Shown here one piece after another: positions 23,857 through 63,766 of a DNA stretch of 64,000 bases. The DNA lies in NCBI GenBank assembly GCA_016186995.1, contig JACPKQ010000020.1, positions 19,417 through 83,416 on the forward strand. The letters are read 5' to 3'. Source of the stretch: Deltaproteobacteria bacterium (GTDB lineage: Bacteria; Bdellovibrionota; JACOXK01). The translations under genes and the position numbers were made by a program. The notes beneath the pieces were generated by a model. It was not told where the DNA came from and did no database searches. It was given only the letters and a program-made list of their open reading frames with translations. Each line of letters begins with the position of its first letter. Positions within the stretch are counted from its first letter, which is position 1.

Positions 23857-23899
23857 ATGATCTATATCATTTTTTTATTTCACTTTTTGAGATTATACT
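23857..23899 (+). promoter_or_regulatory. FNR-type box and -10 element of the nrf operon
   Basis: ATGATCTATATCAT (23857-23870) is an FNR-like palindrome centred 35.5 bases before the end of a TATACT -10 hexamer (23894-23899). That is the geometry of a class II FNR promoter (box about -42 from the predicted start near 23906). It lies between the divergent FNR-like gene and the first gene of the nrf unit. Confidence 0.75.
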
Positions 23900-23912
23900 T
23901 GTTCTCATTAGT

Positions 23913-24323
23913 ATGAGTAAGTATTCAAGACTTTTTACCATTACAAGCTTGCTTTATCTTTTACTTGCCTCTCTCATGGGCTTAACCATGGCAACCAATC
24001 CTTCTATGGCAGGACTTCTTCGATTTCCTCACATTCACACAATGATGATTGGCTGGGTTTCCATGATGATTTTTGGTTTGGCATATCATGTTGTACCCCG
24101 CTTTGCAGGAAGCCCCCTTATTAAAGACAGATGGCAAGGAATTCACTTTTGGTGCGCTAACATTGCCCTTTTAGGAATGATCTTAACCCCACAATCTTCA
24201 TTTGTCTTTTTTGCTGTTTTTGGATCACTTCAAGGCGTAGGAATTCTTATCTTTGTTTTTACAATGCTTCGAGCTCTTAAATTTAAAATGCCTTCAAAAC
24301 CTTGTTGCAACTCTTGTCAGTAA
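23913..24323 (+). CDS. Small heme-copper-oxidase-like membrane protein
   Basis: A 136-residue protein with four membrane helices. The segment FPHIHTMMIGWVSMMIFG followed by AYHVVPRFAG is like helices of CcoN/NorB subunit I or NnrS-type proteins, in which such histidines bind heme. The tail has cysteines (CCNSC). At about a quarter of the length of subunit I it cannot be a whole oxidase; it could be a heme-binding helper in nitrite or NO metabolism. It is the first gene after the FNR-type promoter, followed by nrfH, and has little or no ribosome site, so the leader is very short. Family link is moderately sure; function is not. Confidence 0.65.
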   Translation: MSKYSRLFTITSLLYLLLASLMGLTMATNPSMAGLLRFPHIHTMMIGWVSMMIFGLAYHVVPRFAGSPLIKDRWQGIHFWCANIALLGMILTPQSSFVFFAVFGSLQGVGILIFVFTMLRALKFKMPSKPCCNSCQ

Positions 24324-24372
24324 TGACCCTCTCTTAAGAAATTTTGAATTTGAAAGTTTTTGAGGAATTGCT

Positions 24373-24825
24373 ATGCTAAGACTATTGATGAAAAACGGGG
24401 CCATTTTATTATTTTTTTCGATACCATTAGGAATAGGCCTTTATCTCTTCGTTTATGCCAAAGGGTATTCGTACCTAACCAATAATCCAGAAACCTGCAT
24501 GAACTGCCATGTGATGAGGGATCAATTTTCTACCTGGAATAAATCTTCGCATCATACCATTGCCTCTTGTCAAGATTGCCACATGTCAGGATCCATTCTC
24601 AATAAAATAAAGATAAAAATTTCTAATGGATTTTGGCACTCATGGGCCTTTACAACAGGCCGCTTCAAAGAACCCATCCGAATTAAAGAGCATAATATGA
24701 AGATTGTTGAAAATTCATGTTTTCATTGTCATAGTGAATTATTGCAGTCATCCAATATCGGGGCTCATAAAGCAAAAGCACTCTCTTGCATGCAGTGCCA
24801 TCAGGGTGTGGGACATATAAAATGA
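24373..24825 (+). CDS. nrfH: NrfH, tetraheme quinol dehydrogenase of nitrite reductase
   Basis: A 150-residue NapC/NirT-family cytochrome c with one N-terminal membrane anchor (residues 10-28) and four CXXCH heme sites: CMNCH (42-46), CQDCH, CFHCH and CMQCH. It takes electrons from menaquinol and hands them to NrfA at the outer face of the inner membrane. It overlaps nrfA by 4 bases (ATGA), which fixes the nrfA start. A GAGGAA ribosome site is present. Length matches NrfH (about 150-190), not the longer NapC. Confidence 0.94.
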   Translation: MLRLLMKNGAILLFFSIPLGIGLYLFVYAKGYSYLTNNPETCMNCHVMRDQFSTWNKSSHHTIASCQDCHMSGSILNKIKIKISNGFWHSWAFTTGRFKEPIRIKEHNMKIVENSCFHCHSELLQSSNIGAHKAKALSCMQCHQGVGHIK

Positions 24826-26198
24826 TTCTGAAGAAAAAAATAGTTTTATGGAGTTTTGTTTTTATTATTTTAATGGGTGCTACCATACTTTCTGTAGTGC
24901 TTCTTGTAGATATTTTTGAAAAAAAACAAGAATCCAAAAATCCATTTTATCGTGTTGTTGATCTCACACATGAAACGGAAGACCCTGTTATTTGGGGAAA
25001 GAATTTTCCCCATCAATACGATGGTTATAAAAGAACAGTAGATCAAATCAGAACTCGCTATGGAGGAAGTGAAGCTATTCCCAAAACACCTTCGGATGTG
25101 GATCCTCGCTCTGTTGTAGCCCAATCTAAAATTGAAGAAGATCCCAGGTTGAAAAGAATGTGGGCGGGATACGCTTTTTCAATTGATTTTAGAGAGGAAC
25201 GCGGGCATGCCTTCATGCTCGACGATCAAACTTATACAGAACGCCAGAAAGTTGGGCAACCAGGAACATGTATCAATTGCCATGCATCAACCTATGTCCC
25301 CATGATGAAATTGGGCAAAGGAAATATTATGCATGGCTTTGAACAATTGAATCAAATGCCCTATTCAGAAGCAAGAAAATGGGTCAAACATCCTGTCACT
25401 TGTATTGATTGTCATGATCCAAAAACGATGGAGCTACGAGTCACTCGCCCTGCATTCATGGAGGGAATTGCATCATATAAATCCAAAGATGGTATAAAAA
25501 ATTATGAGGTCAATAAGACTGCAACTCGACAAGAAATGAGAACGTTTGTATGTGCTCAATGCCATGTCGAATATTATTTTAAGGGAAAGGAAAAAAGACT
25601 TACCTATCCATGGTCAAAGGGGCTCAAGGGAGATGAAATACTCGCCTATTATGATGATCTTCAATTTAAAGACTGGGTTCATAAAGAAACCGGGGCAGAC
25701 GTTTTAAAAGCACAACATCCAGAATTTGAAATGTGGAGCCAGGGCATTCATGCAAAATCTAATGTCTCTTGCTCTGACTGTCACATGCCCTACCAACGCG
25801 TAGGTGCAATGAAAATAACCGATCACCACGTCAAAAGTCCGTTGCTTACAATCACAAGGTCGTGTCAAACCTGTCACCGATTGCCAGAGGCAGAACTTCG
25901 TGCACGGGTTGAAACCATTCAGAATCGCACCTTTGAAATGCGTAACCGCACCATGGATGCATTGATGGAACTTATTTCTGATATTAAGGCCACCAAAGAA
26001 TTATCAACAATTCATCCAAACTTAACAAAAGCACGAAACTATCAAAGAAAAGCACAGTTTCTGCTAGATTTCGTTGAAGCCGAAAATTCAACAGGCTTTC
26101 ATGCCCCTCAAGAGGCTGCAAGGTTACTCAACCAATCACTCGATTATATTCGAAAAGGGCAAGTAAGTTTAAGAAAAAACTCTTCTACTCAAAAATAG
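24822..26198 (+). CDS. nrfA: NrfA, pentaheme ammonia-forming nitrite reductase (CXXCH type)
   Basis: A 458-residue cytochrome c552 with an N-terminal membrane or signal segment (residues 7-28). It has five heme sites, all CXXCH, at 150-154, 194-198, 244-248, 317-321 and 348-352. In the classical enzyme the first site is CXXCK, the lysine binding the active-site heme iron; here it is CINCH. Catalytic residues are kept: Arg141 before heme 1, Tyr251 or 252 after the third site (CAQCHVEYYF) and His299 in KAQHPEFEMW. It reduces nitrite to ammonium with NrfH as partner. The ATG is fixed by the ATGA overlap with nrfH. It converges on mobA with two bases between. Confidence 0.95.
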   Translation: MILKKKIVLWSFVFIILMGATILSVVLLVDIFEKKQESKNPFYRVVDLTHETEDPVIWGKNFPHQYDGYKRTVDQIRTRYGGSEAIPKTPSDVDPRSVVAQSKIEEDPRLKRMWAGYAFSIDFREERGHAFMLDDQTYTERQKVGQPGTCINCHASTYVPMMKLGKGNIMHGFEQLNQMPYSEARKWVKHPVTCIDCHDPKTMELRVTRPAFMEGIASYKSKDGIKNYEVNKTATRQEMRTFVCAQCHVEYYFKGKEKRLTYPWSKGLKGDEILAYYDDLQFKDWVHKETGADVLKAQHPEFEMWSQGIHAKSNVSCSDCHMPYQRVGAMKITDHHVKSPLLTITRSCQTCHRLPEAELRARVETIQNRTFEMRNRTMDALMELISDIKATKELSTIHPNLTKARNYQRKAQFLLDFVEAENSTGFHAPQEAARLLNQSLDYIRKGQVSLRKNSSTQK

Positions 26199-26200
26199 CT

Positions 26201-26788
26201 CTACTCATTCACATAAGCCCTTGGCCTATTAAAATTTTCGAAGTAACTCATATTGACTTTCTTATCACCCATATCAAAAAGGCTTACAAAAAGCTTTTTC
26301 GAAACAGGAAGGCTATATAAAAATGCCTTTAATGAAGCTCTTTTTTCAAAGGAAAATATTTTCAATGTGTCATAAAAACTTTTTGGATAGATCCCAATGA
26401 GCGGCTCTAAACGAGTTGTATAAGGAACAACAATTTTGTTTGGATCTTTCAAAAGAGCCAAAGATTTAAGATATTCGACTGGTAGATTCGGTACATCACA
26501 AGGCAAAACAAAAACAAAGGGTGTTTTTGAATATTTTAATGCGGAAAGCACGCCAGCTAGAGGCCCTTCGACTTCTAAATCATCAAAAATATGAGGATAT
26601 GGAGTCAAAGGTGATGGGGGAGAATCTCTAAAAACACACACTGTTTCAAAGCAAATCTGATTTAAATTTTGAAAACTAATCTCTAAAAGAGTTTTTCCTT
26701 TGTGTTGAAATAACCTTTTGTCAGATCCAAAGCGCTTGGACTTTCCTCCACAGATGAGAGCTCCAGTCATATCCTGAAACTTATTCAT
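26201..26788 (-). CDS. mobA: MobA, molybdenum cofactor guanylyltransferase
   Basis: A 195-residue nucleotidyltransferase. The N-terminal LICGGKSKRFGSDKRL is the MobA GTP-binding signature (GGxSxRxGxDK), and FVLPCDVPNLPVEYL carries the metal-binding Asp. It converts Mo-molybdopterin to the bis-MGD cofactor needed by NarG and the Psr-like catalytic subunit in this window. It is the last gene of the cofactor operon and overlaps moaE by 8 bases. Only MobA, not MobB, is present. Confidence 0.93.
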   Translation of the reverse strand: MNKFQDMTGALICGGKSKRFGSDKRLFQHKGKTLLEISFQNLNQICFETVCVFRDSPPSPLTPYPHIFDDLEVEGPLAGVLSALKYSKTPFVFVLPCDVPNLPVEYLKSLALLKDPNKIVVPYTTRLEPLIGIYPKSFYDTLKIFSFEKRASLKAFLYSLPVSKKLFVSLFDMGDKKVNMSYFENFNRPRAYVNE

Positions 26789-27209
26789 GTTGGCATTGTA
26801 CCCCTAACCATAAACTTCCATCTTCATAAAATTCTTTTTTCCAAAGTGGCACAGTTTTTTTCAAAGATCTCATTATGAATTGAGAAGCCTCGTAGGCTTC
26901 TTTTCGATGAAAGGATGAAATAAGCAGTGCTACTGCCGTTTCTCCTACACAAAGTCTGCCCACACGATGCACAAAAATACATTTTTCAAAAGGCCATTTG
27001 TGAAAAGCTTCTTCCACAATCTTGTGCATTTCTTTTTCTGCCATTTCTTTATAAGCGCTATACTCAAGAGAAAGAACTTTTTTACTTTCGTTATGGTTTC
27101 TAACCTTTCCTAGAAAACAAAGCGTAGCACCACAAGTAGGACTCCACACCCAGTCTTCCAACCTTGAAACGTCAATTTTTTCTTCGGTTATAAAAACTTT
27201 GCTTTCCAT
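26781..27209 (-). CDS. moaE: MoaE, molybdopterin synthase large subunit
   Basis: A 142-residue MoaE. The visible family stretches are CFLGKVRNHNESKKV (substrate pocket), LEYSAYKEMAEKEM, VHRVGRLCVGETAVAL and VPLWKKEFYEDGSLW with the active-site lysines. With MoaD it inserts two sulfurs into cyclic pyranopterin to form molybdopterin. GGAGG lies 7 bases before the ATG. The gene is 3 bases from moaD and overlaps mobA. Confidence 0.95.
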   Translation of the reverse strand: MESKVFITEEKIDVSRLEDWVWSPTCGATLCFLGKVRNHNESKKVLSLEYSAYKEMAEKEMHKIVEEAFHKWPFEKCIFVHRVGRLCVGETAVALLISSFHRKEAYEASQFIMRSLKKTVPLWKKEFYEDGSLWLGVQCQHE

Positions 27210-27212
27210 AGA

Positions 27213-27458
27213 CTATCCTCCTGATACCGGAGGAACAAAAATGAGTTCGTCTCCTTCTTGTAGTACATGAGTTTTATCAACATACTCTTGATTCACAGCA
27301 AAAAGGGTTGAAGATAAAAGCTTTTCTTTGAGAGGTGAGCTTTTTAAAAGCATTTTAAAAACATCTTCTACGTTCAAAGGTTTTTCTAAAACTATTTCTT
27401 CACACTCTTTTTTGAAATAATCTCTGTAAAATGCAAAATATTTTATTTTAATTTTCAT
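27213..27458 (-). CDS. moaD: MoaD, molybdopterin synthase sulfur carrier
   Basis: With the ATG at 27458 this is an 81-residue ubiquitin-like protein (MKIKIKYFAFYRDYF...) ending in FVPPVSGG; the C-terminal Gly-Gly is adenylated by MoeB and thiocarboxylated. The ATG overlaps the moeB stop (ATGA). The open frame runs 25 codons upstream, but that part is encoded by the tandem palindromic repeats at 27461-27538 and is not expected in MoaD. There is no Shine-Dalgarno, so translation is probably coupled to moeB. Confidence 0.92.
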   Translation of the reverse strand: MKIKIKYFAFYRDYFKKECEEIVLEKPLNVEDVFKMLLKSSPLKEKLLSSTLFAVNQEYVDKTHVLQEGDELIFVPPVSGG

Positions 27459-28552
27459 AAGATTGCCACGTCGTCTTCGACTCCTCGCAATGACAGAGGG
27501 GCTTTGATTGCCACGTTGCTGCACTCCTCGCAATGACGAAGTGTGTCATAGCCCTGATCCAAAATAAAAACATTTTTAAAACCATTTTCTTCTAAAACTC
27601 CTTTTGCAAAGGGGGTTTTAAGATGTTTTTCACAATAAAGCACATAGGTTTTATCCTTATCATAATTCTTGAGCGCGTCAGGCGATTGCAATAACGACCG
27701 ATATGAAAGATGCTCGGCCCCTTCTAGGGCATCTTTTTCATATTGTTCACGTTCACGAATATCTAAAAGAATAATATTTTTGTCCTTTTTTTTCCAATTT
27801 AAATAGGTGTTATAAGATATTTCGGGAAGAGAAGTACGACCATTCAAGCAATTTTTATTTTTCTTGATTTTTATTTTACTCACTTCAAAGTTTTTTGTAT
27901 CAATCAAATAAAGAAAAGACTGGTTCCCCTCCGGAAAAAGGATTTCTTGCAAAACAAGCTGGGCTTGGAACATCGCAACCATACCCACACTTGGCCCCAA
28001 AACGCCACTTTCATTGCAATTTTGAAAAAGTCCTTCTTCAATGTTAGGGAAAATACAATTCAAACAAGGGCCTCGACTTCGAAACACAGCACATTCTCCG
28101 TGCCACTGATCAATACTCCCATACACCCATGTTTTGTTATTCTGTTTACAAAAATTATTAATCAAAAAGCGCGTTTTGAAATTATCTGTTCCATCTACTA
28201 CAATATCAACATTAGATAAAATTTTATCAATATTATTTTTCTGGAGATGAATCGGAAAAGATTCAACACTTATTGTTGAGTTGAGTTCTTTTATTTTTTT
28301 ATGCATCGCATGAGCTTTGTTTTCTTTAATATCTTTTTCAGAAAATAAAATTTGGCGATGAAGATTGGACAACTCAACACTATCACCATCAATAAGTTTT
28401 ATTCGCCCAACTCCAGCGGGAGCAAGATAAGAGGCTATTACGTTTCCAAGCCCTCCTACACCTACAACAGCAACACTTGCAGCGTTCAGTTTTTTTTGAC
28501 CTGCTTCGCCTATTTCCGAAAGCTTGATTTGCTTTTCGTATCTATTTTGCAT
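27455..28552 (-). CDS. moeB: MoeB/ThiF-type adenylyltransferase with C-terminal rhodanese domain
   Basis: A 365-residue protein. Residues 1-235 form the E1-like domain: VAVVGVGGLGN (ATP loop), the Arg-finger region LHRQILF, and DGTDNFKTR. A rhodanese domain follows (about 255-340) with the active-site cysteine in VLYCEKHLKT. This MoeB-rhodanese layout (as in MoeZ or MOCS3) lets one protein adenylate and sulfurate MoaD. One zinc CXXC pair is present (PCLNC), but the second is reduced to CLNG. The last 25 residues (LRHCEECSNVAIKAPLSLRG...) come from two palindromic repeats. Start is 1 base after the mogA stop, without ribosome site. Confidence 0.92.
   Translation of the reverse strand: MQNRYEKQIKLSEIGEAGQKKLNAASVAVVGVGGLGNVIASYLAPAGVGRIKLIDGDSVELSNLHRQILFSEKDIKENKAHAMHKKIKELNSTISVESFPIHLQKNNIDKILSNVDIVVDGTDNFKTRFLINNFCKQNNKTWVYGSIDQWHGECAVFRSRGPCLNCIFPNIEEGLFQNCNESGVLGPSVGMVAMFQAQLVLQEILFPEGNQSFLYLIDTKNFEVSKIKIKKNKNCLNGRTSLPEISYNTYLNWKKKDKNIILLDIREREQYEKDALEGAEHLSYRSLLQSPDALKNYDKDKTYVLYCEKHLKTPFAKGVLEENGFKNVFILDQGYDTLRHCEECSNVAIKAPLSLRGVEDDVAIL
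27461..27538. repeat. Two tandem copies of GATTGCCACGT..CTCGCAATGAC repeat
   Basis: Copies at 27461-27496 and 27506-27538 share GATTGCCACGT and ACTCCTCGCAATGAC with a variable centre. They lie at the moeB 3' end and just upstream of the moaD start, and are read through as the MoeB tail. Confidence 0.85.
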
Positions 28553-28553
28553 A

Positions 28554-29075
28554 TTAATTAGATTTAGATCCCCGCCTCCGCGGGGATGACGGGGACGGAT
28601 GCTCTGCTGTTCCTCTTAAAATTCCCAAACCATGTTCCAAAACTGGCATCAGAATTTCTAAAGATTCTTCTACCCCACGAGAAGAGCCTGGAAGATTAAT
28701 AATAAGTGAGTTTTTACGAAGCCCCGCTATGGCGCGTGATAAAAGAGCCAAGGGTGTTTTTTTAAAACCCTCGAGTCGCATCACCTCTCCAAAACCAGGA
28801 ACCTCCCGTTCAATCACTTTCTTTGTGGCCTCAGGAGTAATATCTCTTTTTGAAAAACCTGTTCCTCCTGTAGTTAAGATAAGCCCCACACTCATTTCAT
28901 CTACAAGTTTCTTTAAGTGGTTTTCAATAATATCCATTTCATCTGGAATGACTTCATAAGAAACAAGCTTGCAACTTGTATTCTTAAACATTTCTTGAAT
29001 AATCTTGCCACTTTTATCAATACGCTTTCCTTCAGAACAACGATCACTGACTGTAACAATAGCTAAAGTCATCAT
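28554..29075 (-). CDS. mogA: MogA/MoaB-type molybdopterin adenylyltransferase
   Basis: A 173-residue protein with VSDRCSEGKRIDKSGK, the nucleotide-binding TTGGTGFSKRDITPEAT and the LPGSSRGVEESLEIL stretch. It adenylates molybdopterin before MoeA inserts molybdenum. The start overlaps the moaC stop (ATGA) with AGGA six bases upstream. The C-terminal SPSSPRRRGSKSN is encoded by a palindromic repeat (28568-28592), so the original stop has probably been displaced. Confidence 0.93.
   Translation of the reverse strand: MMTLAIVTVSDRCSEGKRIDKSGKIIQEMFKNTSCKLVSYEVIPDEMDIIENHLKKLVDEMSVGLILTTGGTGFSKRDITPEATKKVIEREVPGFGEVMRLEGFKKTPLALLSRAIAGLRKNSLIINLPGSSRGVEESLEILMPVLEHGLGILRGTAEHPSPSSPRRRGSKSN
28568..28592. 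repeat. Dispersed palindromic element at mogA 3' end
   Basis: ATCCCCGCCTCCGCGGGGAT is a clean palindrome, followed by GACGG. It encodes the end of MogA (SPRRRG). Confidence 0.8.
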
Positions 29076-29587
29076 AAAATATCCTGGATCCCAGCCTTCG
29101 CTGGGATGACACTCCTTGTCATTCCCGCGGAGACGGGAATCTTATTTGATTTAGTTTTTTCTAAAAGGCGAATGTTTTCAAAAAACATGTTTTTATCTAC
29201 CGCCTTACACATGTCATAAATCGTTAACAAAGCCACGTTCACTGCCGTTAAGGCTTCCATTTCAACCCCTGTTTTGGCACTTGTTATGACTTGAGCTTGC
29301 ACTTCAATCCCCCCTTCTTGAAATTCAAAATCTATACTCACATGATCTAAGTTAAGAGAATGACAAAGAGGAATAAGATCTGCTGTTTTTTTAGCCGCTT
29401 GAATACCTGCAATGCGAGCACAAGCAAATACACTTCCTTTAGGTATTTTTTCATTTCGAATTTTTTCTAAAACAGATGGCGACATTTTAATAAAACCTCG
29501 AGCCCGAGCATATCTCTCAACAATAGGTTTAGCCTGCACCGGAACCTGTCTGATTTCTCCTTTTTTATCTAAATGTGTCAATTTCAT
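29072..29587 (-). CDS. moaC: MoaC, cyclic pyranopterin monophosphate synthase
   Basis: A 171-residue MoaC. The motifs GSVFACARIAGIQAAKKT, LIPLCHSLNLDHVSIDF, TSAKTGVEMEALTAVN and TIYDMCKAVDK are diagnostic and hold the catalytic lysines. It acts after MoaA to form cPMP. The last 20 residues (IPVSAGMTRSVIPAKAGIQD...) come from two adjacent palindromic repeats (29084-29142) and are foreign to the family, whose proteins end soon after the KTKS helix. AAAGGAG precedes the ATG. Confidence 0.94.
   Translation of the reverse strand: MKLTHLDKKGEIRQVPVQAKPIVERYARARGFIKMSPSVLEKIRNEKIPKGSVFACARIAGIQAAKKTADLIPLCHSLNLDHVSIDFEFQEGGIEVQAQVITSAKTGVEMEALTAVNVALLTIYDMCKAVDKNMFFENIRLLEKTKSNKIPVSAGMTRSVIPAKAGIQDIL
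29084..29142. repeat. Pair of dispersed palindromes at moaC 3' end
   Basis: CTGGATCCCAGCC-TTCG-CTGGGATGAC (29084-29110) is followed by GTCATTCCCGCGGAGACGGG (29118-29137) and AATCT. Both are of the ATGAC-ending family and both are translated in MoaC. Confidence 0.8.
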
Positions 29588-29599
29588 ACTTCTCCTTTG

Positions 29600-30808
29600 T
29601 TAAGCCTCCAAGGGATAGACACTCACAAGTGTATCTTGAAGTACTGTGTCAGAACCTTCTGGTATTGAAATAAAACAATTTGCAAGGGATAAAGAAAGCA
29701 CATTACCCGAAGAGAGTTTTAAAGGTGTGACACTTTCAACCCCTAAGTTACTTTTAAGAACTCCTGGAATAAAAACATGTCTTTTTTGTTGGTGAATTTC
29801 TTCTGTTACATAAGCATTTTTTTCCTCTAAAAAATAACAACAACGATTTTGCATTTTACAAATGAGGGGATAAATAAAATGGTAGAATCCCACTTGAGCA
29901 GATAAAGGATTACCAGGTAGTCCAAAAATAAATGTGTCCGCTTTTCTTGAAAATAAAATAGGTTTTCCTGGTTTTATGGATACTTTATGAAAAATAATAC
30001 GAGCTCCCAACTCCTCTAAAATTTCTTTAACAAAATCGTGTTTTCCTACAGAAACACCACCTGTTAAAATAAGAAACTGAGGTTCTTTTAAAAAAATTTG
30101 TTTTATTTTTTCAGAAAGTTTGAAAGGTTCATCTGGAGATATACCTTCGTCTTCAAATTCACATCCCTCTTTTTGAAAAAGTCCTAGAAGAGAAAAGGCA
30201 TTGCTATTATAAATGTGATGTTCTTGTCTTTGCTCTTCGAGAGAAATAATCTCATTCCCCGTTGCAAGATAAGAAACTTTAACCTTCTTATAAACAGACA
30301 GCCTTTTCTCACCAAAGCTTGCAAGCACTCCTAAATCATTCGGTTCTATTTTTTTTCCTTTTCTAAAAATAAGACTCCCTTTTTGAATGTATTCACCTTG
30401 AAGTCGAATATGTGATCCTTTGTGGCAAGGCTTTGAAAAATAAGCCTGATCTCCTTTTACTTGAACTTCTTCTTTCATCACAACAGAATCAGCGCCTTGA
30501 GGTAACGGAGCTCCCGTTGCAATTTCTTGGACAAAACCTTCTTGAAGAACAGAAAAGGAAGAGCCTGCACTTTGATAAGATTGAATCGGCAAACTTTGAG
30601 GGTTTTCTCGAGAGGCACTTTCCACATCTTCTGCCCTCACAGCAAAACCATCCATTGCAGAGTTTGTAAAAACAGGCTGATCAAAACGAGCAAAAAGTGA
30701 GTGCTCTAAAATACGACCTACTGATTCTTGCAAGTTTATTACTTCAACCCCCAACTCTTTATTTGATTCACGGGTGATCCTTTGCTGTGCTTCTTTAAGA
30801 CTTATCAT
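29600..30808 (-). CDS. moeA: MoeA, molybdopterin molybdenumtransferase
   Basis: About 402 residues, taken from ATG 30808 (GGAGG 11 bases upstream). Domain order matches MoeA: ALMDGFAV-like NSAMDGFAVRAEDV near residue 50, IATGAPLPQGADSVV, the MPT-binding-like domain with STGNE-type YLATGNEIIS, LTGGVSVGKHDF and FGLPGNPLSAQVGFYHF, and a C-terminal beta domain. It inserts molybdate into adenylated molybdopterin. It is 8 bases downstream of moaA. The longer frame to 30826 uses a TTG that overlaps the ribosome site. Confidence 0.95.
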   Translation of the reverse strand: MISLKEAQQRITRESNKELGVEVINLQESVGRILEHSLFARFDQPVFTNSAMDGFAVRAEDVESASRENPQSLPIQSYQSAGSSFSVLQEGFVQEIATGAPLPQGADSVVMKEEVQVKGDQAYFSKPCHKGSHIRLQGEYIQKGSLIFRKGKKIEPNDLGVLASFGEKRLSVYKKVKVSYLATGNEIISLEEQRQEHHIYNSNAFSLLGLFQKEGCEFEDEGISPDEPFKLSEKIKQIFLKEPQFLILTGGVSVGKHDFVKEILEELGARIIFHKVSIKPGKPILFSRKADTFIFGLPGNPLSAQVGFYHFIYPLICKMQNRCCYFLEEKNAYVTEEIHQQKRHVFIPGVLKSNLGVESVTPLKLSSGNVLSLSLANCFISIPEGSDTVLQDTLVSVYPLEA

Positions 30809-30815
30809 GGCAGTA

Positions 30816-31805
30816 TTATCCTCCAATATTTACAAAACTTTGTACATTTCCAATTTGTCCCTTTCCTAAATCATGGTGTTTGGGTTTCAATCGTAAGTTT
30901 TCTATTAATGTCTCTTCTAGTTTTTTCTCCCAATGCGAAGAACGTAAAATAGAAAGAAGATTTCTATCTTCCTGGCTAAAGAGGCACAGTTTGAGATCTC
31001 CTTTGGCTGTTATCCTGATTCTATTACATTTATCACAAAAATTATGTGATAAAGGAGAAATAAAACCAATTTCTCCTTTTCCCCCATCCACTTTAAAATA
31101 AGAAGAAGGCCCGGTTTGTTCTTTTTGAATTTTGGGGGTTAAAGAAAACTTTTCTTTTATTCTTAAAAGCGCCTCATGATTTGAAAAATAATAAACTTGA
31201 TGCTCAGCTTGAGTAAAACCTGTCGGCATAAACTCAATAAACCGTACAATAAAAGGATAGTGAATAGAAAATCTTACAAAATCAAAAAGCTCTTCATCAT
31301 TCATACCCTTGACAAGAACGGCGTTTATTTTAATAGGCTCCAAACCTACGTCATAGGCTTTCACAATACCTTTTTTGACTCTTTCTAAACTTAAAGTTTG
31401 CGTTATTTTTTGAAAAGATTTTTCATTTAGAGAATCAAGACTTACATTGACTCTGTGAAGGCCTGCTTCTTTTAAATCAAAGGCTTTCTTTTCAAGAAAA
31501 AAACCATTTGTAATCAAAGAAATATCTTGAATATAAGAATTGTCGCGCAAAACCCTCACAATATCTACAATATCTTTTCTCAAGAGAGGTTCTCCCCCAG
31601 TAAGTTTAACTTTTCTAATCCCTAGTCTTCCTAAAACAATAAAAAGTTTTTCGATATCAGCAACTGTTAAATAAGAATGATCAGGTACAAATTCTTGTTT
31701 AAAAAGTGAAGGTCTGCAATAAAAACATTGAAAATTACACTTATCAGTCACAGAAAGTCTTACGTAATCAATTTTTCTATTGTATGGATCAATGAGTTGC
31801 TTCAT
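30816..31805 (-). CDS. moaA: MoaA, GTP 3',8-cyclase (radical SAM)
   Basis: A 329-residue radical SAM enzyme. The N-terminal cluster motif is CNFQCFYC (CX3CX2C), followed by KLTGGEPLLRKD. The C-terminal second cluster is supplied by FCDKCNRIRITAKGDLKLCL. The protein ends in IGG; the C-terminal Gly-Gly is needed for activity in MoaA. It starts cPMP synthesis from GTP. It overlaps the MOT1-type transporter gene by 17 bases; AAAGG lies upstream of the ATG. Confidence 0.96.
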   Translation of the reverse strand: MKQLIDPYNRKIDYVRLSVTDKCNFQCFYCRPSLFKQEFVPDHSYLTVADIEKLFIVLGRLGIRKVKLTGGEPLLRKDIVDIVRVLRDNSYIQDISLITNGFFLEKKAFDLKEAGLHRVNVSLDSLNEKSFQKITQTLSLERVKKGIVKAYDVGLEPIKINAVLVKGMNDEELFDFVRFSIHYPFIVRFIEFMPTGFTQAEHQVYYFSNHEALLRIKEKFSLTPKIQKEQTGPSSYFKVDGGKGEIGFISPLSHNFCDKCNRIRITAKGDLKLCLFSQEDRNLLSILRSSHWEKKLEETLIENLRLKPKHHDLGKGQIGNVQSFVNIGG

Positions 31806-33009
31806 AAATACCTTTTCTTAAATATTGAACTCCATAATAAACACCACTACCCACTAAAAGAGCTCCTCCTGCATGCCAAAATACAAAAGCACAACTTGTA
31901 GCCACTAAAGACACAACTTCTTTAAAACCACGAATTAAAAAAGCGCGCTTACAAAGATCAAAAGCTGGAAATATAAATAAAATCCCCAAAAGAGGTTTTG
32001 GGAAGTGTGTTGCAAGGGTCAAGAAAAAAGAACCTAATAAAAGTGCAACGGTTATTTTTAAAAAGCCCAAAAATACAATACTAAAACCAGTACGCGCTCC
32101 AAATATCATTTGTGCTGCTAAGCCCCCTGCACCATGACACGAAGGCATACCTCCAAAGGGGCACGTCAGTAAGTTGACCAAACCTACAGATTTTGAGATC
32201 TCTGAAACACCCACATGAGATTGTGGAAACTCATCTTGAATGAGAAGTGCTGGAGAAAAAATAGAGTTAGCCATTGTGAGGGGAAGCTGAATAAGGATCA
32301 GCAACAATATTGTTTGAGTACTGGATGACATGAAAGAATCGGGGGATGACAATAATGGTAGTTGGAGAAACTCTAATGAAAACCCTATATGAGGAAAAGC
32401 AAGCACCCCACTGTCAGATAAAACAAAAATACCAAAACCAAAAATTAAAAAAGTGAGAAGAAATTGTAATTTATGAAAGAAAAAGAACAAAAAGAAAATG
32501 ACAAAAAAGAATAAGATCCCTATTAAGACACCCTCGCCCCACTCCTCTCCCATCAAGGGAGAGGGCGTTGAGAAGATTAATTCGAAGGCTTTTTTTAAAA
32601 AAACAATTCCCAAGCCCAGTTGGATCCCTCGAATGACAGCTTGTGGAAAAAAACGATAGAGTTTTTCGAAAAGATGGAGGTCATTCAAAATAAGGATCAC
32701 AACTCCCAAACAAAAACCTGCCAAGAGTAACTCTCCTTGAGAAACTCCGTAAGTAATAGCGTAAAGCCCCATTGCCTTCATAGGCTGCAAAGGAAGTGGA
32801 ATTTTAAAGATAAACCCAATCACAATGTGACAAAGACCACTCCAAAAAAGAATACTTAAAGGGTTAAAACCTGCATGTTGTGACAAACCCACTATGAGTA
32901 TAAAAAAAAGTGGAAGATCTCCAAGTGCACCTGAAATTTCATGAATATAAAAAGAAAGCTTGTTCAAAAAATCTCCTTTCCAAACTTGGGGAGGAAGAAG
33001 CGTTTCCAT
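31789..33009 (-). CDS. MOT1/sulfate-permease-like molybdate transporter
   Basis: A 406-residue membrane protein with about ten helices. HEISGALGDLPLFFILIVGL near the start, the IPLPLQPMKAMG motif and GMPSCHGAGGLAAQ match the MOT1 molybdate-transporter family (COG SulP-like, PF16983 type) known from plants and bacteria. Its position at the head of the moa/moe operon supports molybdate uptake. ATG 33009 is preceded by AGGGAAG; the open frame to 33102 would include a palindromic repeat (33043-33069). A second repeat (32529-32569) inserts STPSPLMGEEWGEG in frame in a loop near residue 150. Confidence 0.82.
   Translation of the reverse strand: METLLPPQVWKGDFLNKLSFYIHEISGALGDLPLFFILIVGLSQHAGFNPLSILFWSGLCHIVIGFIFKIPLPLQPMKAMGLYAITYGVSQGELLLAGFCLGVVILILNDLHLFEKLYRFFPQAVIRGIQLGLGIVFLKKAFELIFSTPSPLMGEEWGEGVLIGILFFFVIFFLFFFFHKLQFLLTFLIFGFGIFVLSDSGVLAFPHIGFSLEFLQLPLLSSPDSFMSSSTQTILLLILIQLPLTMANSIFSPALLIQDEFPQSHVGVSEISKSVGLVNLLTCPFGGMPSCHGAGGLAAQMIFGARTGFSIVFLGFLKITVALLLGSFFLTLATHFPKPLLGILFIFPAFDLCKRAFLIRGFKEVVSLVATSCAFVFWHAGGALLVGSGVYYGVQYLRKGIYEATH
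32529..32569. repeat. Dispersed CTCTCCC..ATCAAGGGAGAG repeat inside transporter gene
   Basis: CTCTCCCATCAAGGGAGAG is a hairpin like that at 15970-16002, preceded by ACCCTCGCCCCACTC. It is translated in frame in the MOT1-like gene. Confidence 0.8.
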
Positions 33010-33042
33010 TTCTTCCCTATCGGTCTTAAACCTTAACAACAA

Positions 33043-33069
33043 TGGATCCCCGTTTTCACGGGGATGACA
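33043..33069. repeat. Dispersed palindromic element in 5' leader of transporter gene
   Basis: GGATCCCCGTTTTCACGGGG followed by ATGAC. It lies just upstream of the likely ATG at 33009. Confidence 0.75.
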
Positions 33070-33118
33070 TTCTGCCGTAGGTTTTAAGACTCGGAGAATC
33101 AAACTCTATCGTACCGAA

Positions 33119-33159
33119 GTTATCACGCTTTGGAAGGAAAAAAATATGACCTAGATCAA
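33119..33159 (-). promoter_or_regulatory. FNR-type box between molybdenum-cofactor operon and porin gene
   Basis: ATGACCTAGATCAA (33146-33159) resembles the boxes at the nrf and nar promoters. On the minus strand a GATAAC hexamer ends 33.5 bases from the box centre, fitting a class II promoter for the MOT1-moa operon. On the plus strand the best -10 (TATACT, 33178-33183) is only 30.5 bases away, so control of the porin gene is less sure. Confidence 0.55.
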
Positions 33160-35205: not shown

Positions 35206-36759
35206 TTAGCACTTTACCTCCGAGTTTGTGCGATCGTAATACCACCAATTCAAAACAAGACAAATAAAATAATAAAGTGCAAAACCATACAGTGCATACT
35301 CGGGATGCCCTATTTTAATTTGCTTTCCAAATACTTGCGGAATAATAAAAGCCCCATAAGCTGCGATTGCTGAAGTCCACCCTAATACCGGACCTGCTTG
35401 ATTTTTTTCAAAAATATAGGGAATACTTCTAAAAGTAGAACCATTTCCAATTCCTGTAGTAATAAATAAAATAAGAAATAAAATGAGAAACGGAAAAAAA
35501 TAAGTCTCAGGGGTTGTAGCTGTACGAGCACTCACCGTGCAATAAGCAACACCCAAAGCGGCGCCAATCATGGCGACCGTTGTCCAATGAGTCACTTTAG
35601 AACCACTCTGGATTTTATCAGAAAGCCACCCACCTATAGGGCGAACAAGAGAACCGACTAAGGGGCCTAACCAGGCATAAGCAAAAGGATTCGGTGCATG
35701 TGGATTTAAAGAACCATTGGGCAATACCCCAAAAATATCTTGAATCAATTTTGGAAAAGCTGCCGAGTAACCAATAAAGGAACCGAATGTCATGGTATAA
35801 ATAACCGTCATCACCCAATTATGCTTATTATTAAAAATAGCAAATTGTTTATGAAGATTGCTTTTAAGCTCTCCAGGTGAAAGATACTTCATGAAAAGAA
35901 CAGTCAGAAAAATGGTAATAGGTAAAACAATCCACATATTCCATTGAAGTTGTAGTAAAAGAATAAGCCCTATTGCGGCAGCCACCCCCCCCAAAGCGAT
36001 GAGAAACAAAATTTTCCCGAAACTTACAAGTGTCGAACCTAACTCAGGTGAAGCTCCCAATAAATTATTCATCCCGAAAAAGGAGGCAACTGCAATCACG
36101 ATCAGAATAGGCACCCATGTAAACCCACAGTTTTGAATATAAATAAAAGTTTCTTTTAAAATTTGCCCTTCACCACCTAAAACACCAAACAAAGCAAAAC
36201 CCATGGTCAAGGGAAGCAGAACTTGCATCACACTGACACCCAGATTTCCAAGACCTGCATTTAAGCCCAATGCAGTTCCTTGCATGCTTTTAGGAAAGAA
36301 AAAACTAATATTTGACATGGACGAAGCAAAGTTACCCCCACCAAAACCAGAAAGTGCAGCTAAGACAGCAAAAATCATATAGGAAGTATTCTTATCTTGA
36401 AGTGCTACTCCAACACCTACTGTTGGAATAAGAAGTAAGGCTGTTGTGAGGAAAATGACATTCCTTCCACCGCCAATGGCTATTAAAAAAGAATTAGGAA
36501 TTCTAAACGTAGCCCCAGCAAGACCTGCGATAGCAGGAAGTGTGTAGAAAAGAGCCCGATTCGCAGCTGGATCTGGATCAAATACAAAACCCAAATTTTG
36601 CATCTGAACAATAATAATGCTCCAGATCATCCACACAGCAAAGGCAAGCAAAAGACAAGGAATGGATATAAGAAGATTACGCATCGCACTTTTTTTACCT
36701 TGAGAATTCCAAAACTTTAGATCTTCCACATTCCATTCTTTAATATTTACTGATTTCAT
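35206..36759 (-). CDS. narK2: NarK2-type nitrate/nitrite transporter (MFS)
   Basis: A 517-residue, 12-helix MFS protein. The nitrate signature GFGGGNFASSMSNISFFFPK near residue 145 is that of NarK-type nitrate/nitrite antiporters; the second signature (GIGNGSTFRSIPYIF) lies in the C-terminal half. It exchanges external nitrate for the nitrite formed by NarGHI. The start at 36759 has GAGGAG upstream; the longer frame to 36810 would overlap narK1. The two narK genes lie in tandem, as in Thermus and Paracoccus, where NarK1 (symporter) and NarK2 (antiporter) work together. Confidence 0.92.
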   Translation of the reverse strand: MKSVNIKEWNVEDLKFWNSQGKKSAMRNLLISIPCLLLAFAVWMIWSIIIVQMQNLGFVFDPDPAANRALFYTLPAIAGLAGATFRIPNSFLIAIGGGRNVIFLTTALLLIPTVGVGVALQDKNTSYMIFAVLAALSGFGGGNFASSMSNISFFFPKSMQGTALGLNAGLGNLGVSVMQVLLPLTMGFALFGVLGGEGQILKETFIYIQNCGFTWVPILIVIAVASFFGMNNLLGASPELGSTLVSFGKILFLIALGGVAAAIGLILLLQLQWNMWIVLPITIFLTVLFMKYLSPGELKSNLHKQFAIFNNKHNWVMTVIYTMTFGSFIGYSAAFPKLIQDIFGVLPNGSLNPHAPNPFAYAWLGPLVGSLVRPIGGWLSDKIQSGSKVTHWTTVAMIGAALGVAYCTVSARTATTPETYFFPFLILFLILFITTGIGNGSTFRSIPYIFEKNQAGPVLGWTSAIAAYGAFIIPQVFGKQIKIGHPEYALYGFALYYFICLVLNWWYYDRTNSEVKC

Positions 36760-36761
36760 GA

Positions 36762-38261: not shown

Positions 38262-38273
38262 AGTTTCTTCAAA

Positions 38274-39002
38274 TTAATTGTTCCGTGGACGAGTCACCGT
38301 CCACACCGTTTCAGCTCGACGCACCTTTTTTCGATCCCAATACCAAATGACAACTTGATAAGGCCTCCACACATAATGCAAAGGCACCATAAGAAAATGA
38401 ATCAATCTTGTAAAAGGAACCAAAAGAATGATGAGAAATGCTCCTACAATATGAAGCTTAATCACCCAAGGCATCGCTTGCACAGCTCCTATTTCCGGGT
38501 TGAATTTAAAAATCGACCACAGATAAGGGGAGAGATCAGCCGCAAACCACGATGATCCCCAACGATAACCTAAGGCACTCCAACAACCTAAAATCACTTG
38601 TGCTAATAATAAAAACTCAATAAAAATATCTGCGGGGCTTGTGACAACACGAATGCGCGCCTGGGAAAGACGTCTTACAATAAGTCCTACAAGACCTACG
38701 AGAACTAAAACCCCGAAAGTAAAAGCAGTGACTTCAAGAATAATGAGACGAATAGGCTGACTATTCCACAAAAGTTGTGTTTTTGGAAACATAAAAGCAA
38801 GAAGATGACCGAAAAAAACAACCACAATACCCCAGTGAAAAGGCACAGACCCCCAAAAAAGTTTTCTTCCCTCTAAAAACTGGCTTGAAAAAGAAGAAAC
38901 TGTAAAGCCCGATTGGCGATAACGATAAATACAGCCAATCGCAAAAATAACGAGAGCTAAATAAGGTAATGCCACAAACAAAAAACTATCTAACATATTC
39001 AT
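38274..39002 (-). CDS. narI: NarI, cytochrome b subunit of nitrate reductase
   Basis: A 242-residue membrane protein with five helices. Histidines expected to hold two b hemes are visible in VPFHWGIVVVFFGHLLAF (helix 2) and IKLHIVGAFLIILLVPFTRLIH (helix 5, read in parts). It takes electrons from quinol and passes them to NarH. It overlaps narJ by 4 bases and is followed by narK1. Length is normal (about 225-245). Confidence 0.94.
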   Translation of the reverse strand: MNMLDSFLFVALPYLALVIFAIGCIYRYRQSGFTVSSFSSQFLEGRKLFWGSVPFHWGIVVVFFGHLLAFMFPKTQLLWNSQPIRLIILEVTAFTFGVLVLVGLVGLIVRRLSQARIRVVTSPADIFIEFLLLAQVILGCWSALGYRWGSSWFAADLSPYLWSIFKFNPEIGAVQAMPWVIKLHIVGAFLIILLVPFTRLIHFLMVPLHYVWRPYQVVIWYWDRKKVRRAETVWTVTRPRNN

Positions 39003-39655: not shown

Positions 39656-39658
39656 TTT

Positions 39659-41215: not shown

Positions 41216-41226
41216 AATCAATCTCC

Positions 41227-44844: not shown

Positions 44845-44864
44845 TCTAACCTCCACAAAGATCG

Positions 44865-45718: not shown

Positions 45719-45759
45719 AATATATAGAAATCTAAAGCGAAAAAAATGACCTAAATCAT
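45719..45759 (-). promoter_or_regulatory. FNR-type box and -10 element of the nar operon
   Basis: On the minus strand the palindrome ATGATTTAGGTCAT (45759-45746) is centred 33.5 bases before the end of a TATATT -10 hexamer (45724-45719). The predicted start is near 45712, about 38 bases ahead of narC. This is class II FNR geometry. The box also faces the EamA gene on the other strand. Confidence 0.78.
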
Positions 45760-54608: not shown

Positions 54609-55283
54609 TTATTGTTCTAAGAACTGAGGATTGAGAATAGTAATGGACTTGGCTTTGGTTGCAATAAAGCCTTGCTTTTTCCAATCAGAAAAAACACGAA
54701 TCACTGTTTCTGGACGGGCCCCAATAATAGAGGCTATTTCTTCTCTTGAAAGCGGAAGTTGATTATTGCAATTTACATTTCCAACAATCATTTTTAAAAA
54801 TTGGGCTAACCGCTGTTCAACTGTTTTATCAACAAGATCTGTAAATTTTTCCTCTGATTGTCTTAACTCCTCACACACTTTTTTTAAAAAAACAAAACTT
54901 AACTCTGGAGAAGTTTTAAAAACTTTTTGGACTCCCTCTTTCTTAATAAAACAAAGCGTTGTTTCACTCACAGCCTGTGCCGAAGCATGATATTTTTCAT
55001 TTGAAAAAAAAGATCGATACCCCACCATTTCACTTCCTTGAGAAAGAAGAAGAATCTGTTCTTTACCACTTTCTGTTGTTTTAAAAACCTTAACAACCCC
55101 AGAAAATGTACAATAAAGCCCTTTAGGGTTTTCTCCTTCTCTAAAAATAAAATCCCCTTTTCTGTAAGTTTGGGTGATTTTGTATTGATTGAGGATATCG
55201 AGTTCCTGCTCCTTTAAAGCACAAAAAAGGCCATAGTGCCTGGGAAGGCAATTCTTACAATCAATCATGTTTCTTGTTTCCAC
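54609..55283 (-). CDS. CRP/FNR-family regulator with FNR-like cysteines (paralogue 2)
   Basis: A 224-residue paralogue of the protein at 23129-23803, with most residues identical by eye. The effector domain contains RKGDFIFREGE and SGVVKVFK; the winged helix SREEIASIIGARPETVIRVF is the same. Cysteines 9, 12, 21, 58 and 111 stand at exactly the same places as in paralogue 1, so an Fe-S sensor is likely for both. It starts at a GTG because an upstream in-frame TAG excludes a longer start. It is not adjacent to a respiratory operon. The two identical recognition helices predict the same DNA site, hence redundancy or competition. Confidence 0.88.
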   Translation of the reverse strand: METRNMIDCKNCLPRHYGLFCALKEQELDILNQYKITQTYRKGDFIFREGENPKGLYCTFSGVVKVFKTTESGKEQILLLSQGSEMVGYRSFFSNEKYHASAQAVSETTLCFIKKEGVQKVFKTSPELSFVFLKKVCEELRQSEEKFTDLVDKTVEQRLAQFLKMIVGNVNCNNQLPLSREEIASIIGARPETVIRVFSDWKKQGFIATKAKSITILNPQFLEQ

Positions 55284-56934: not shown

Positions 56935-56940
56935 CTAAAT

Positions 56941-56954
56941 ATGACCTTTGTCAT
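56941..56954 (+). promoter_or_regulatory. FNR-type palindrome upstream of small membrane-protein gene
   Basis: ATGACCTTTGTCAT has perfect ATGAC/GTCAT arms. It is centred about 64 bases before the predicted start of the 57013 gene, a class I position rather than the class II spacing seen at the nar and nrf promoters. Confidence 0.45.
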
Positions 56955-56975: not shown

Positions 56976-57005
56976 TTGACACAAACAATAAGTACATCTT
57001 ACAAT
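56976..57005 (+). promoter_or_regulatory. Promoter overlapping the gene start at 57013 (possible leaderless message)
   Basis: TTGACA (56976-56981), an 18-base spacer and TACAAT (57000-57005). The expected transcript start near 57012 would coincide with the ATG at 57013. Confidence 0.55.
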
Positions 57006-57012
57006 GAAGCAG

Positions 57013-57525: not shown

Positions 57526-57588
57526 TTGAAACCCTTATCATTTTTTATTTTACTTTTTCTGTTTTGAAAGGGGTGTATAATGGGGGGT

Positions 57589-57630
57589 GAGATCCAAATC
57601 ATAGAGCCTTCATTGAAGAACTTTCATGAT
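57589..57630 (+). promoter_or_regulatory. FNR-type box and -10 element of the hsp20-uspA unit
   Basis: GAGATCCAAATCAT (57589-57602), with a good right and a weak left half-site, is centred 34.5 bases before the end of CATGAT (57625-57630), the same geometry as at the nar and Psr-like promoters. Predicted start near 57637, about 43 bases before the Hsp20 ATG. Confidence 0.5.
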
Positions 57631-61644: not shown

Positions 61645-62837
61645 ATGCGCTCCTTCGTCTGTAATGGCAGAAATTTAAGCCCTAAAGTAAAAACAAAAAT
61701 ACCTAAAGAAATAATAAAAACACTTACAAGCCATTCCATAAGACTTGGAAAATAATAAGTTGAAAAACGAGCTGAGCGATAAGCTTCTACTAACCCTTTA
61801 ATTTCCTCAGAGGCAAGCGCAGGAATAACGATGTTCAGTCGAACCCCAATAAAACCAACAAGCACACACAACACAGCGGTGAAAACAAAAGAAATATTTT
61901 TTTTTGTTTTGGGATAGGACAACAACAGCACCGGAATCATCATCCCCACACATAACTGAACAACCCAAAATACCCACCAAAAAGGCCCTTTCATAACCGT
62001 CAAAAAGGGTTCAATGTGGTGAGGAATCGCCCCATAAAGACCCACTAATATTTCTGAAATGTTAAACAAAATATCTACTGCTAGAAAATATAAAACAAGT
62101 TGTCCTAAAGATTGAATGAGTTCGCTGTATTTTTCTTTATCTTTTTGTATGAAAATAAAAATAAACGTAATGAGGGCCCCTCCAGATGCTAAAGCAGAAA
62201 TGAGAAAAATAATAGGGTATAAACCAGAATGCCAATAAGGCCTGGCAGAAACAACACCAAATAAAGCCCCCACACCCCCGTGAAACATAATAGCTAAAGG
62301 AACTCCAATACTCCCAAGAATACGAACATATTTTCTATCACGGGCTATCCCTTCCGAGCTTTGTGAACCAAACCCAAGTGAAAAAATCTTCCACATTCCA
62401 CCCATTTTTAAAAAATCACTTCTCAATAAAAAATAAGCCTCACAGATAAGTACAAGAAAATAAATGGTATAAAGCCATACCATCCATGCCATCATAGAAT
62501 GAAAATTAGGTGTAAGAAGTACCCGCCACGCTCGCTCCATATGTCCCAAATCAAACCAAATAAAGATAAGAGCCATAAACAATGTTACAAGCGCAACAAA
62601 AACAGAAAGCTTACCTAACGGTTCAAATTTCTTAATTTGAAAAACATAAACAAGAGAAGAAATGAGGAAGGCTCCTGCACTCAAACCTACAAAATAAATA
62701 TAAAGAGCCACCCATAATCCCCAGGGAATGATGGACCCGTAGTTAGCTTGGAGATGTTCTGTGGTCAGCCTCTCATACACCCCTATGAGTCCAATACCCA
62801 ATCCTATAACAAGGGTTACCCAAAAGAATTTTTTCAT
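61641..62837 (-). CDS. NrfD/PsrC-type quinone-binding membrane subunit
   Basis: A 398-residue protein with about ten membrane helices. IPWGLWVALYIYFVGLSAGAF near the N terminus and AIMFHGGVGALFGVVSARPYWHSG in the middle match the NrfD/PsrC/HybB family, whose members exchange electrons with quinone without heme. It anchors the Fe-S and Mo subunits on the periplasmic face. AAGGAG lies upstream; the stop overlaps the catalytic-subunit ATG. Its place between the Fe-S and Mo subunit genes is as in many Psr-like operons. Confidence 0.92.
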   Translation of the reverse strand: MKKFFWVTLVIGLGIGLIGVYERLTTEHLQANYGSIIPWGLWVALYIYFVGLSAGAFLISSLVYVFQIKKFEPLGKLSVFVALVTLFMALIFIWFDLGHMERAWRVLLTPNFHSMMAWMVWLYTIYFLVLICEAYFLLRSDFLKMGGMWKIFSLGFGSQSSEGIARDRKYVRILGSIGVPLAIMFHGGVGALFGVVSARPYWHSGLYPIIFLISALASGGALITFIFIFIQKDKEKYSELIQSLGQLVLYFLAVDILFNISEILVGLYGAIPHHIEPFLTVMKGPFWWVFWVVQLCVGMMIPVLLLSYPKTKKNISFVFTAVLCVLVGFIGVRLNIVIPALASEEIKGLVEAYRSARFSTYYFPSLMEWLVSVFIISLGIFVFTLGLKFLPLQTKERI

Positions 62838-62849
62838 AACTTTGCTCCT

Positions 62850-63680
62850 TTATAAAGCATAATAAACATTAGGTTGTGTTCCCAATTCTTCTTTAAGACG
62901 AATTGTATTTCGACGAGCTAAAAGTTTGCTCACTTCACTTTCAGGATCTAAAAAATCTCCAAAATGAATGGCTTTCCCCATACATGTTTTTGCACAAGCA
63001 GGTAAGTCAGTATAGTTTCCTTCTTCATCTTGAAGATGTAAGCAAAAATCACATTTTCGTACTGTTCCAATAGGTGCCTTTCCATGCTCACGAACACCCT
63101 GAACACCCCCCCACTCTGGAGAAGGAATGTGATTATAATCATTTCCCTTATCAGCAATATATTCCTCACCAAAGTCAAAGCTACGAGCCCCATAAGGACA
63201 TGCTGTAATACAGTATCGACAGCCAATACATTTATGAGGATCTATGACAACAATCCCATCTTCTTTTCTTTTATAGGTTGCTGTCACAGGGCATACAGGT
63301 ACGCAAGGAGGTTGTTCGCATTGAAAACAGGGTTTTGGAAACCACCGGCGCCTCACATTCGGAAACTCTCCCAACTCTTCCTCAACAACAGGATTATAAA
63401 CAACCCCAGGAGGTAGTTTGTGTTCAGATCGACAGGAAACAGTGCATGCCTTACAATTAACACAACGTACGAGATCAATCACCATTCCCCATCTGTGTTT
63501 TTTTTGAGAGTTGAGTTCGAGTGCTTCTACTTGCTTGGAAAAAACATTTGAAAAAGAGGCAACCAAACTACCGAGTGATACTAACCCTGTCAGTTTGAGA
63601 AATTCTTTTCGGCTTACAATACTCTCGGAAAAGACATTCTCGAGAGACTCCCCATTGTGAACATCTTTGTCTTCTGCCAT
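62850..63680 (-). CDS. PsrB/DmsB-type 4Fe-4S electron-transfer subunit with Tat-like signal
   Basis: A 276-residue protein, from the ATG at 63680 behind AAGGAG. Near residue 25 SRKEFLKLTGLVSLG is a Tat-type signal with RK in place of RR. Four cysteine groups follow: CVNCKACTVSCRSEH, CFQCEQPPCVPVCP, CIGCRYCITACPYG and CDFCLHLQD with CAKTCMGKAIHFGD, enough for four [4Fe-4S] clusters. It transfers electrons from the NrfD-type subunit to the Mo subunit in the periplasm. First gene of the operon, under an FNR-type promoter. An ATG nine codons upstream (63707) contains the ribosome site and is unlikely. Confidence 0.93.
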   Translation of the reverse strand: MAEDKDVHNGESLENVFSESIVSRKEFLKLTGLVSLGSLVASFSNVFSKQVEALELNSQKKHRWGMVIDLVRCVNCKACTVSCRSEHKLPPGVVYNPVVEEELGEFPNVRRRWFPKPCFQCEQPPCVPVCPVTATYKRKEDGIVVIDPHKCIGCRYCITACPYGARSFDFGEEYIADKGNDYNHIPSPEWGGVQGVREHGKAPIGTVRKCDFCLHLQDEEGNYTDLPACAKTCMGKAIHFGDFLDPESEVSKLLARRNTIRLKEELGTQPNVYYAL

Positions 63681-63724
63681 GACCTTCTCCTTTTGTGAAA
63701 AACTCATTCACTCTTAGACTATAA

Positions 63725-63766
63725 GTTATAACAGCCTTGCATGTAAAACAAACTGATCCACATCAC
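63725..63766 (-). promoter_or_regulatory. FNR-type box and -10 element of the Psr-like operon
   Basis: On the minus strand GTGATGTGGATCAG (63766-63753) is centred 34.5 bases before the end of TATAAC (63730-63725), ideal class II FNR geometry. Predicted start near 63718, 38 bases ahead of the Fe-S subunit ATG. Confidence 0.75.

Follow-up and report, generated by a model that had tools for sequence, protein, structure and literature searches.

The subject of this analysis is a 64,000-nucleotide stretch of DNA from a Deltaproteobacteria bacterium (Bdellovibrionota; JACOXK01), positions 19,417 to 83,416 of contig JACPKQ010000020.1 in assembly GCA_016186995.1, which we call the window and for which an initial annotation had proposed an FNR-type regulon marked by palindromic boxes at a fixed distance from -10 hexamers. 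Our comparisons of sequences make it very likely that the nitrite (nrf), nitrate (nar) and molybdenum cofactor (moco) operons of the window belong to an anaerobic-respiration regulon under two near-identical FNR-type activators, Fnr1 and Fnr2, which would act in class II fashion through a shifted box.

The box and its predicted target genes

The initial annotation had described five 14-mer palindromes near TGAYCYANATCA, before nrf, nar, moco, a Psr-like operon and hsp20-uspA, and every one of them is present in the DNA at the coordinates listed below. Its consensus is corrected here to the family motif ATGAYnTAnRTCAT, a 14-bp palindrome that departs from the classical TTGATnnnnATCAA. The outer T...A bases of the classical FNR box TTGATNNNNATCAA are not found in the boxes here, of which that of moco, TTGATCTAGGTCAT, retains one outer T, and the outer positions are A/T at 97% in 20 relatives' boxes, some of these gathered using that pattern.

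The window was scored with a weight matrix made from ten relatives' boxes before nar, moco, fnr and CcoN-like genes, chosen by gene context and with no pattern search. Over approximately 64,000 positions the nrf box came first, the nar box second and the moco box fifth (scores of 18.6 to 21.5, the moco box having 18.6), while the best score below rank 5 was 9.7, which supports the earlier proposal that nitrate, nitrite and moco are tied to one box. These three sites stand far above noise; the Psr-like box lies at the noise edge and the hsp20 box in the noise. The five sites, with their matrix ranks, are as follows.

23857..23870, + strand: nrf box ATGATCTATATCAT, exact match to ATGAYNTANRTCAT, also upstream of the divergent fnr1; rank 1
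45746..45759, - strand: nar box ATGATTTAGGTCAT, with a box before nar in four relatives too; rank 2
33146..33159, - strand: moco box, with a box upstream of moco genes in three relatives too; rank 5
63753..63766, - strand: Psr-like operon box GTGATGTGGATCAG, a weaker candidate with the TGAT-N4-ATCA core intact and 3 mismatches to the family motif; rank 11
57589..57602, + strand: claimed hsp20 box GAGATCCAAATCAT, rejected; rank 266

Such boxes might be palindromes that arose by chance in the AT-rich DNA of promoters, the -10 hexamers having been chosen to fit, a reading that we hold to be very improbable. It draws on the core TGATNNNNATCA, which taken alone is found 61 times in the genome against about 56 expected from base composition (37% G+C), that is, at the level of chance; the core alone is therefore unusable and independent evidence is needed. 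The hsp20 site is a case of this kind and the Psr-like site may be another. For nrf, nar and moco chance palindromes are already refuted, since the matrix trained on relatives, a base-matched control, an intergenic bias and an independent spacing peak are all contrary to them.

In the window, ATGAYNTANRTCAT with at most one mismatch occurs 5 times compared with 0.75 in dinucleotide shuffles, none of 100 shuffles reaching 5, and the looser TGAYNNNNRTCA occurs 10 times compared with 4.84 (4 of 100 shuffles reach 10). The genome scan consisted of pattern searches together with the stretches around the matches, and our own genome comprises 1.68 Mb. This genome has 6 exact copies of ATGAYNTANRTCAT, where about 1.4 are expected, and eight class genomes together have 25, whereas the base-matched control TTGAYNTANRTCAA (TTGA...TCAA, nearer to the textbook FNR box) is found 0 times in our own genome and 8 times in the eight. 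All eight control sites lie within called open frames, seven of them clearly inside genes; the exception, L137, stands 67 bases ahead of a cytochrome c gene, in a small open frame of doubtful status, and is probably a real site. Among 40 own-genome sites within one mismatch, those with an intact TGAYnTAnRTCA are all intergenic (11 of 11), against 5 of the 22 with a broken core (Fisher 2e-5).

Footprinting utilized seven genomes of the same class (G001 to G007; NarG 81-89% identical), in which the leaders of the orthologous nar, moco and fnr operons were read. A palindrome near ATGAYnTAnRTCAT is present in almost every leader: before nar in G001, G004, G005 and G006 (five genomes counting our own), before moco in G002, G004 and G006 (four counting our own) and before the fnr operons of G002 and G004. 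The homologue of the small CcoN-like gene in G002 (L054 9153-9638) is preceded by a box, as is the gene of the copper nitrite reductase NirK in G002, G004 and G007; further boxed genes in relatives encode PFOR, multihaem cytochromes, pairs of similar outer-membrane proteins, ResB and MtrB-like porins, the last two each in two genomes. The boxed genes of our own genome are nrf, nar, moco and those of three multihaem cytochromes, a B12/radical-SAM protein, a malic enzyme and a secreted CxxCH protein, with a one-mismatch box upstream of the ResB gene; outside the window, the same box ties in roughly eight more operons. Judged by predicted gene content, this set matches the expectation for an anaerobic-respiration regulon. 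In the genome scan that had been put forward as a check, within the reach of these pattern searches, the intact-motif matches are intergenic, chiefly before cytochrome and anaerobic genes, and their spacing recurs in relatives. A secreted protein of about 160 residues, with no Pfam match, is preceded by a box in two genomes (our own and G004; L095 1994-2497 and L112 2609-3091), hinting at an unrecognised anaerobic function.

The candidate regulators Fnr1 and Fnr2

The initial annotation had named two FNR paralogues as the natural controllers, and this is supported: the products of the two genes below are the only Crp/Fnr helix-turn-helix proteins found in the genome, and both genes are in the window.

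23129..23803, - strand: fnr1, a Crp/Fnr regulator with CxxCx8C, a cysteine matching the fourth FNR cluster cysteine and the recognition helix PETVIR
54609..55283, - strand: fnr2, a paralogue 80% identical to fnr1 with the same recognition helix

Both proteins have Pfam domains PF00027 and PF13545, i.e. the cyclic-nucleotide-binding fold and a Crp-type helix-turn-helix. Their best NCBIfam family is Fnr PRK11161 at 81-88 bits against a cut-off of 228 and, because these scores are far under the cut-off, we describe them as FNR-like and do not file them as Fnr proper. Among solved structures, A. fischeri FNR is the closest by sequence, and the predicted model matches it with a Z of about 16 over the sensor domain; the model matches many other cyclic-nucleotide-binding folds as well. 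The AlphaFold model was built from an alignment of three sequences that includes L033, without the cysteines, and its N terminus is modelled with low confidence (blocks 54-71). Named public genomes scanned with Fnr2 yielded distant proteins only.

Both paralogues contain four cysteines in FNR-like places, namely CxxCx8C, where FNR has C-x2-C-x5-C, and Cys111, which aligns to the fourth cluster cysteine of A. fischeri FNR; the set is retained in both window proteins and in 4 of the 5 class orthologues. An extra cysteine at position 58, in (L/F)YC or LFC before FSG, is conserved in Fnr1, Fnr2 and all the class orthologues (L004-L008); kept also in L008, where the third N-terminal cysteine is serine, it might be a cluster ligand. 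In the recognition helix PETVIR replaces VETISR, so that Glu and Arg are retained while the Ser of E-xx-S-R is Ile in both paralogues and all five class orthologues. The main box contacts of E. coli FNR are Glu209, Ser212 and Arg213 (PMC4505428), and across the Crp/Fnr family the recognition-helix positions track the box letters (PMC1274295). That Glu and Arg persist together with the TGA/TCA core, and that Ser is lost along with the outer T, would fit this helix-box pattern.

The boxes could be real and bound by Crp/Fnr proteins while the cue is nitric oxide or another redox signal, as for DNR/NnrR- or HcpR-like regulators, and not oxygen via an iron-sulphur cluster. We consider this unlikely, although nar, nir and nrf targets are equally typical of DNR and NnrR (PMC1274295), DNR turns up when the window proteins are matched by structure and by sequence, and the third cysteine is replaced in L008. 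The wide retention of CxxCx8C and the fourth-cysteine equivalent points the other way, and the presence of PFOR and cytochrome maturation among the targets suits a general anaerobic regulator. On our reading the signal would be oxygen rather than nitric oxide.

The FNR-like pair would then work as follows. At low oxygen, the dimer would hold an iron-sulphur cluster on its N-terminal cysteines and Cys111 and would bind the box via the Glu and Arg of the recognition helix; once bound, it would contact RNA polymerase from -41.5, standing in for the -35 contact. Pro and Ile at the places of E. coli FNR Val208 and Ser212 would move the outer base preference from T to A. Autoregulation of fnr is likely because the fnr genes carry boxes too, and the two paralogues are presumably redundant. 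We put forward tentatively, as a possibility that we do not favour, a more specific proposal: a lineage-wide FNR branch, with the Ser-to-Ile helix and displaced third cysteine, would have co-evolved with ATGAYnTAnRTCAT, and its paralogues would read the same boxes but might be unequally sensitive to oxygen, so that the genes for nitrate, nitrite and extracellular electron transfer would come under graded control. If the altered specificity is true, Fnr1 and Fnr2 would prefer ATGATCTATATCAT over TTGATCTATATCAA and GAGATCCAAATCAT.

Class II spacing

The distances of 33.5 to 35.5 bases between box centre and the end of the -10 hexamer, as originally given, are arithmetically correct for all five sites, but the hexamers themselves are convincing only for nrf and nar and less so for the Psr-like operon (candidate TATAAC, 34.5 from the box centre). 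The moco candidate GATAAC, 33.5 from the box centre, is weak. The two clearest predictions are listed here.

23894..23899, + strand: predicted nrf -10 TATACT, 35.5 from box centre to its end, predicted start about 23906
45719..45724, - strand: predicted nar -10 TATATT, 33.5 from box centre to its end, predicted start about 45712

To place these distances among all others, -10-like hexamers were counted at every distance over oriented site-gene pairs, with two thresholds and 54 windows of distance. At the lower threshold the 33.5-35.5 window contains a hexamer in 6 of 11 promoters of our own set (mean 1.2 and maximum 3 elsewhere; binomial 5e-4) and in 9 of 21 promoters of the relatives (mean 1.55 and maximum 5 elsewhere; binomial 8e-6), and it is the top of the 54 windows for both sets; at the stricter threshold it is first in our own set and second in that of the relatives. 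The peak agrees with class II geometry, in which the activator is at about -41.5 and its centre about 34.5 from the end of the -10, the starts being predicted from sequence. The relatives were not known when the geometry was first proposed, and its recurrence in their independent promoters is therefore a genuine prediction borne out.

A different arrangement, in which the boxes are mostly repressor sites or class I sites and class II activation applies to a minority of promoters, seems to us quite improbable. Box 56941 (described below), near -64.5 and with a TTGACA of its own, would suit it, as would the sites without a class II -10 hexamer; those for which better hexamers lie elsewhere may reflect repression or class I activation. 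Against this stands the rank of the 33.5-35.5 window in both sets at the lower threshold, and we retain class II activation by the FNR-like pair.

Several observations weigh against an oxygen-sensing class II regulon as we describe it. In about half of the boxed promoters no -10 stands out at the class II distance, and L095, L104 and L121 have better hexamers 16-28 bases away from the box. An E. coli-like matrix served as the -10 model, and the site-gene pairs were oriented by hand. Some boxed genes, such as that of malic enzyme, are not obviously anaerobic, and some boxes (L081, L105) lie where a contig ends or where two genes converge. Finally, the serine in place of the third cysteine occurs in a relative of the same family (L008), and cluster ligation is thus not certain.

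The nrf, nar and moco operons

23913..26198, + strand: nrf unit, with a 136-amino-acid CcoN-like membrane protein, an NrfH-like cytochrome and NrfA (Pfam COX1, Cytochrom_NNT, Cytochrom_C552)
35206..45674, - strand: nar operon, with cytochrome c, narG, narH, narJ, narI and two MFS transporters (Pfam, NCBIfam narG)
26201..32965, - strand: molybdenum cofactor operon, with MOT1, moaA, moeA, moaC, mogA/moaB, moeB, moaD-like, moaE and mobA (Pfam)
32957..33108, - strand: Moco riboswitch RF01055, between the box and MOT1 (covariance model 64.5 bits, gathering 36)

The membership of moco in the regulon is supported by its box, but the control first described for it was incomplete, as a Moco riboswitch is also present; the riboswitch match begins at 33108, four bases past the start predicted from the box (about 33112), which serves as one more check on the class II spacing. 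The moco transcript would be further gated by the riboswitch directly downstream of its start. The same arrangement is found in the relative L057, at 14557-14674 (-), with 79.6 bits against the gathering 36 and again between an FNR-type box and MOT1/moaA. The riboswitch of the window has a hairpin insert, TCATCCCCGTGAAAACGGGGATCC, in a variable loop, like intergenic repeats nearby.

The first gene of the nrf operon (23913-24323) encodes a protein like a fragment of CcoN, the cbb3 oxidase subunit I, and the predicted nrf leader is only about 7 bases long. The order of the nar operon, with the c-type cytochrome first and two MFS transporters last, resembles the narCGHJIK1K2 order of Thermus.

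Other candidate sites

The Psr-like operon had been counted in the regulon, and its box core and the TATAAC at 34.5 hold, but its membership is unproven, the box being weak and the class offering no ortholog to footprint. The first gene does have class homologues, but they match it in part only (about 48-52%, in the C-terminal part), belong to other operons and have no consistent box; a C19 copy of the Psr core, TGATGTGGATCA, is inside a gene. The proposed stress unit hsp20-uspA is not supported and we drop it: its box has three mismatches to the motif, the hexamer taken as its -10 reads CATGAT, and a TATAAT is found at 57576-57581, on the upstream side of the box. The only class homologue of the hsp20 gene (L136) has no box before it.

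Two boxes at least as good as that of moco, 56941-56954 and 23103-23116, were absent from the initial annotation.

56941..56954, + strand: unreported box ATGACCTTTGTCAT, rank 4, about 64.5 bases before a predicted start and class I-like, with TTGACA and TACAAT downstream

This box precedes 57004-57492, which encodes a 162-amino-acid membrane-like protein of unknown function; the predicted transcript is near-leaderless and the start codon is possibly at 57013. A long inverted repeat (CGGAGATCGTCATCCTGAGC...GGATGACGATCTCCG), mobile-element-like, occupies 56869-56936, between a Fic gene and the box. The high-scoring box 23103-23116 spans the start codon of a gene for an HPF-like (S30AE) protein; it may be a coincidence of the coding sequence or else a site for repression.

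Comparison with known systems

This analysis provides a weight matrix that has been tested, together with a list of targets, for anaerobic control in a class that is uncultured. It proposes a link, within a natural lineage, between a substituted residue of the FNR recognition helix and an altered box, and it indicates that sequence alone can reveal class II spacing in distant bacteria, with footprinting in their relatives as a check. No description of the altered box and helix was found in the literature searched, which left out most subscription journals.

The E. coli FNR regulon shares with the one described here the TGAT...ATCA core, the class II spacing, the nrf/nar/moa targets and the four cysteines in FNR-like places (PMC5434802, PMC4505428, PMC2408646); in E. 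coli, nrf has an FNR site at -41.5 (PMC5434802) and moaA combines an FNR site with the Moco RNA (PMC2408646). Relative to TTGATNNNNATCAA, our boxes have outer A...T for T...A, a central TA, and C or T at half-site position 5, while the proteins have PETVIR for VETISR, a third cysteine after x8 instead of x5, and two paralogues. To the E. coli targets the class adds NirK, MtrB-like porins and multihaem cytochromes. The DNR, NnrR and HcpR branches also control nitrogen-oxide respiration through related palindromes, and their changes of specificity track recognition-helix positions 180 and 181 (PMC1274295); in contrast to them, the window proteins retain the cysteine set, the box differs from TTGATnnnnATCAA, TTGACnnnnGTCAA and GTAACnnnnGTTAC, and there is no sign of a dedicated nitric oxide role. 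Crp/Fnr relatives from other families of the same phylum (L009-L026), 30-37% identical to the window proteins, have in most cases the N-terminal cysteine pattern and an ET(V/L)IR helix. An FNR-type regulon is itself of a known kind, and what appears to be new is the combination of an altered box and an altered recognition helix in this lineage.

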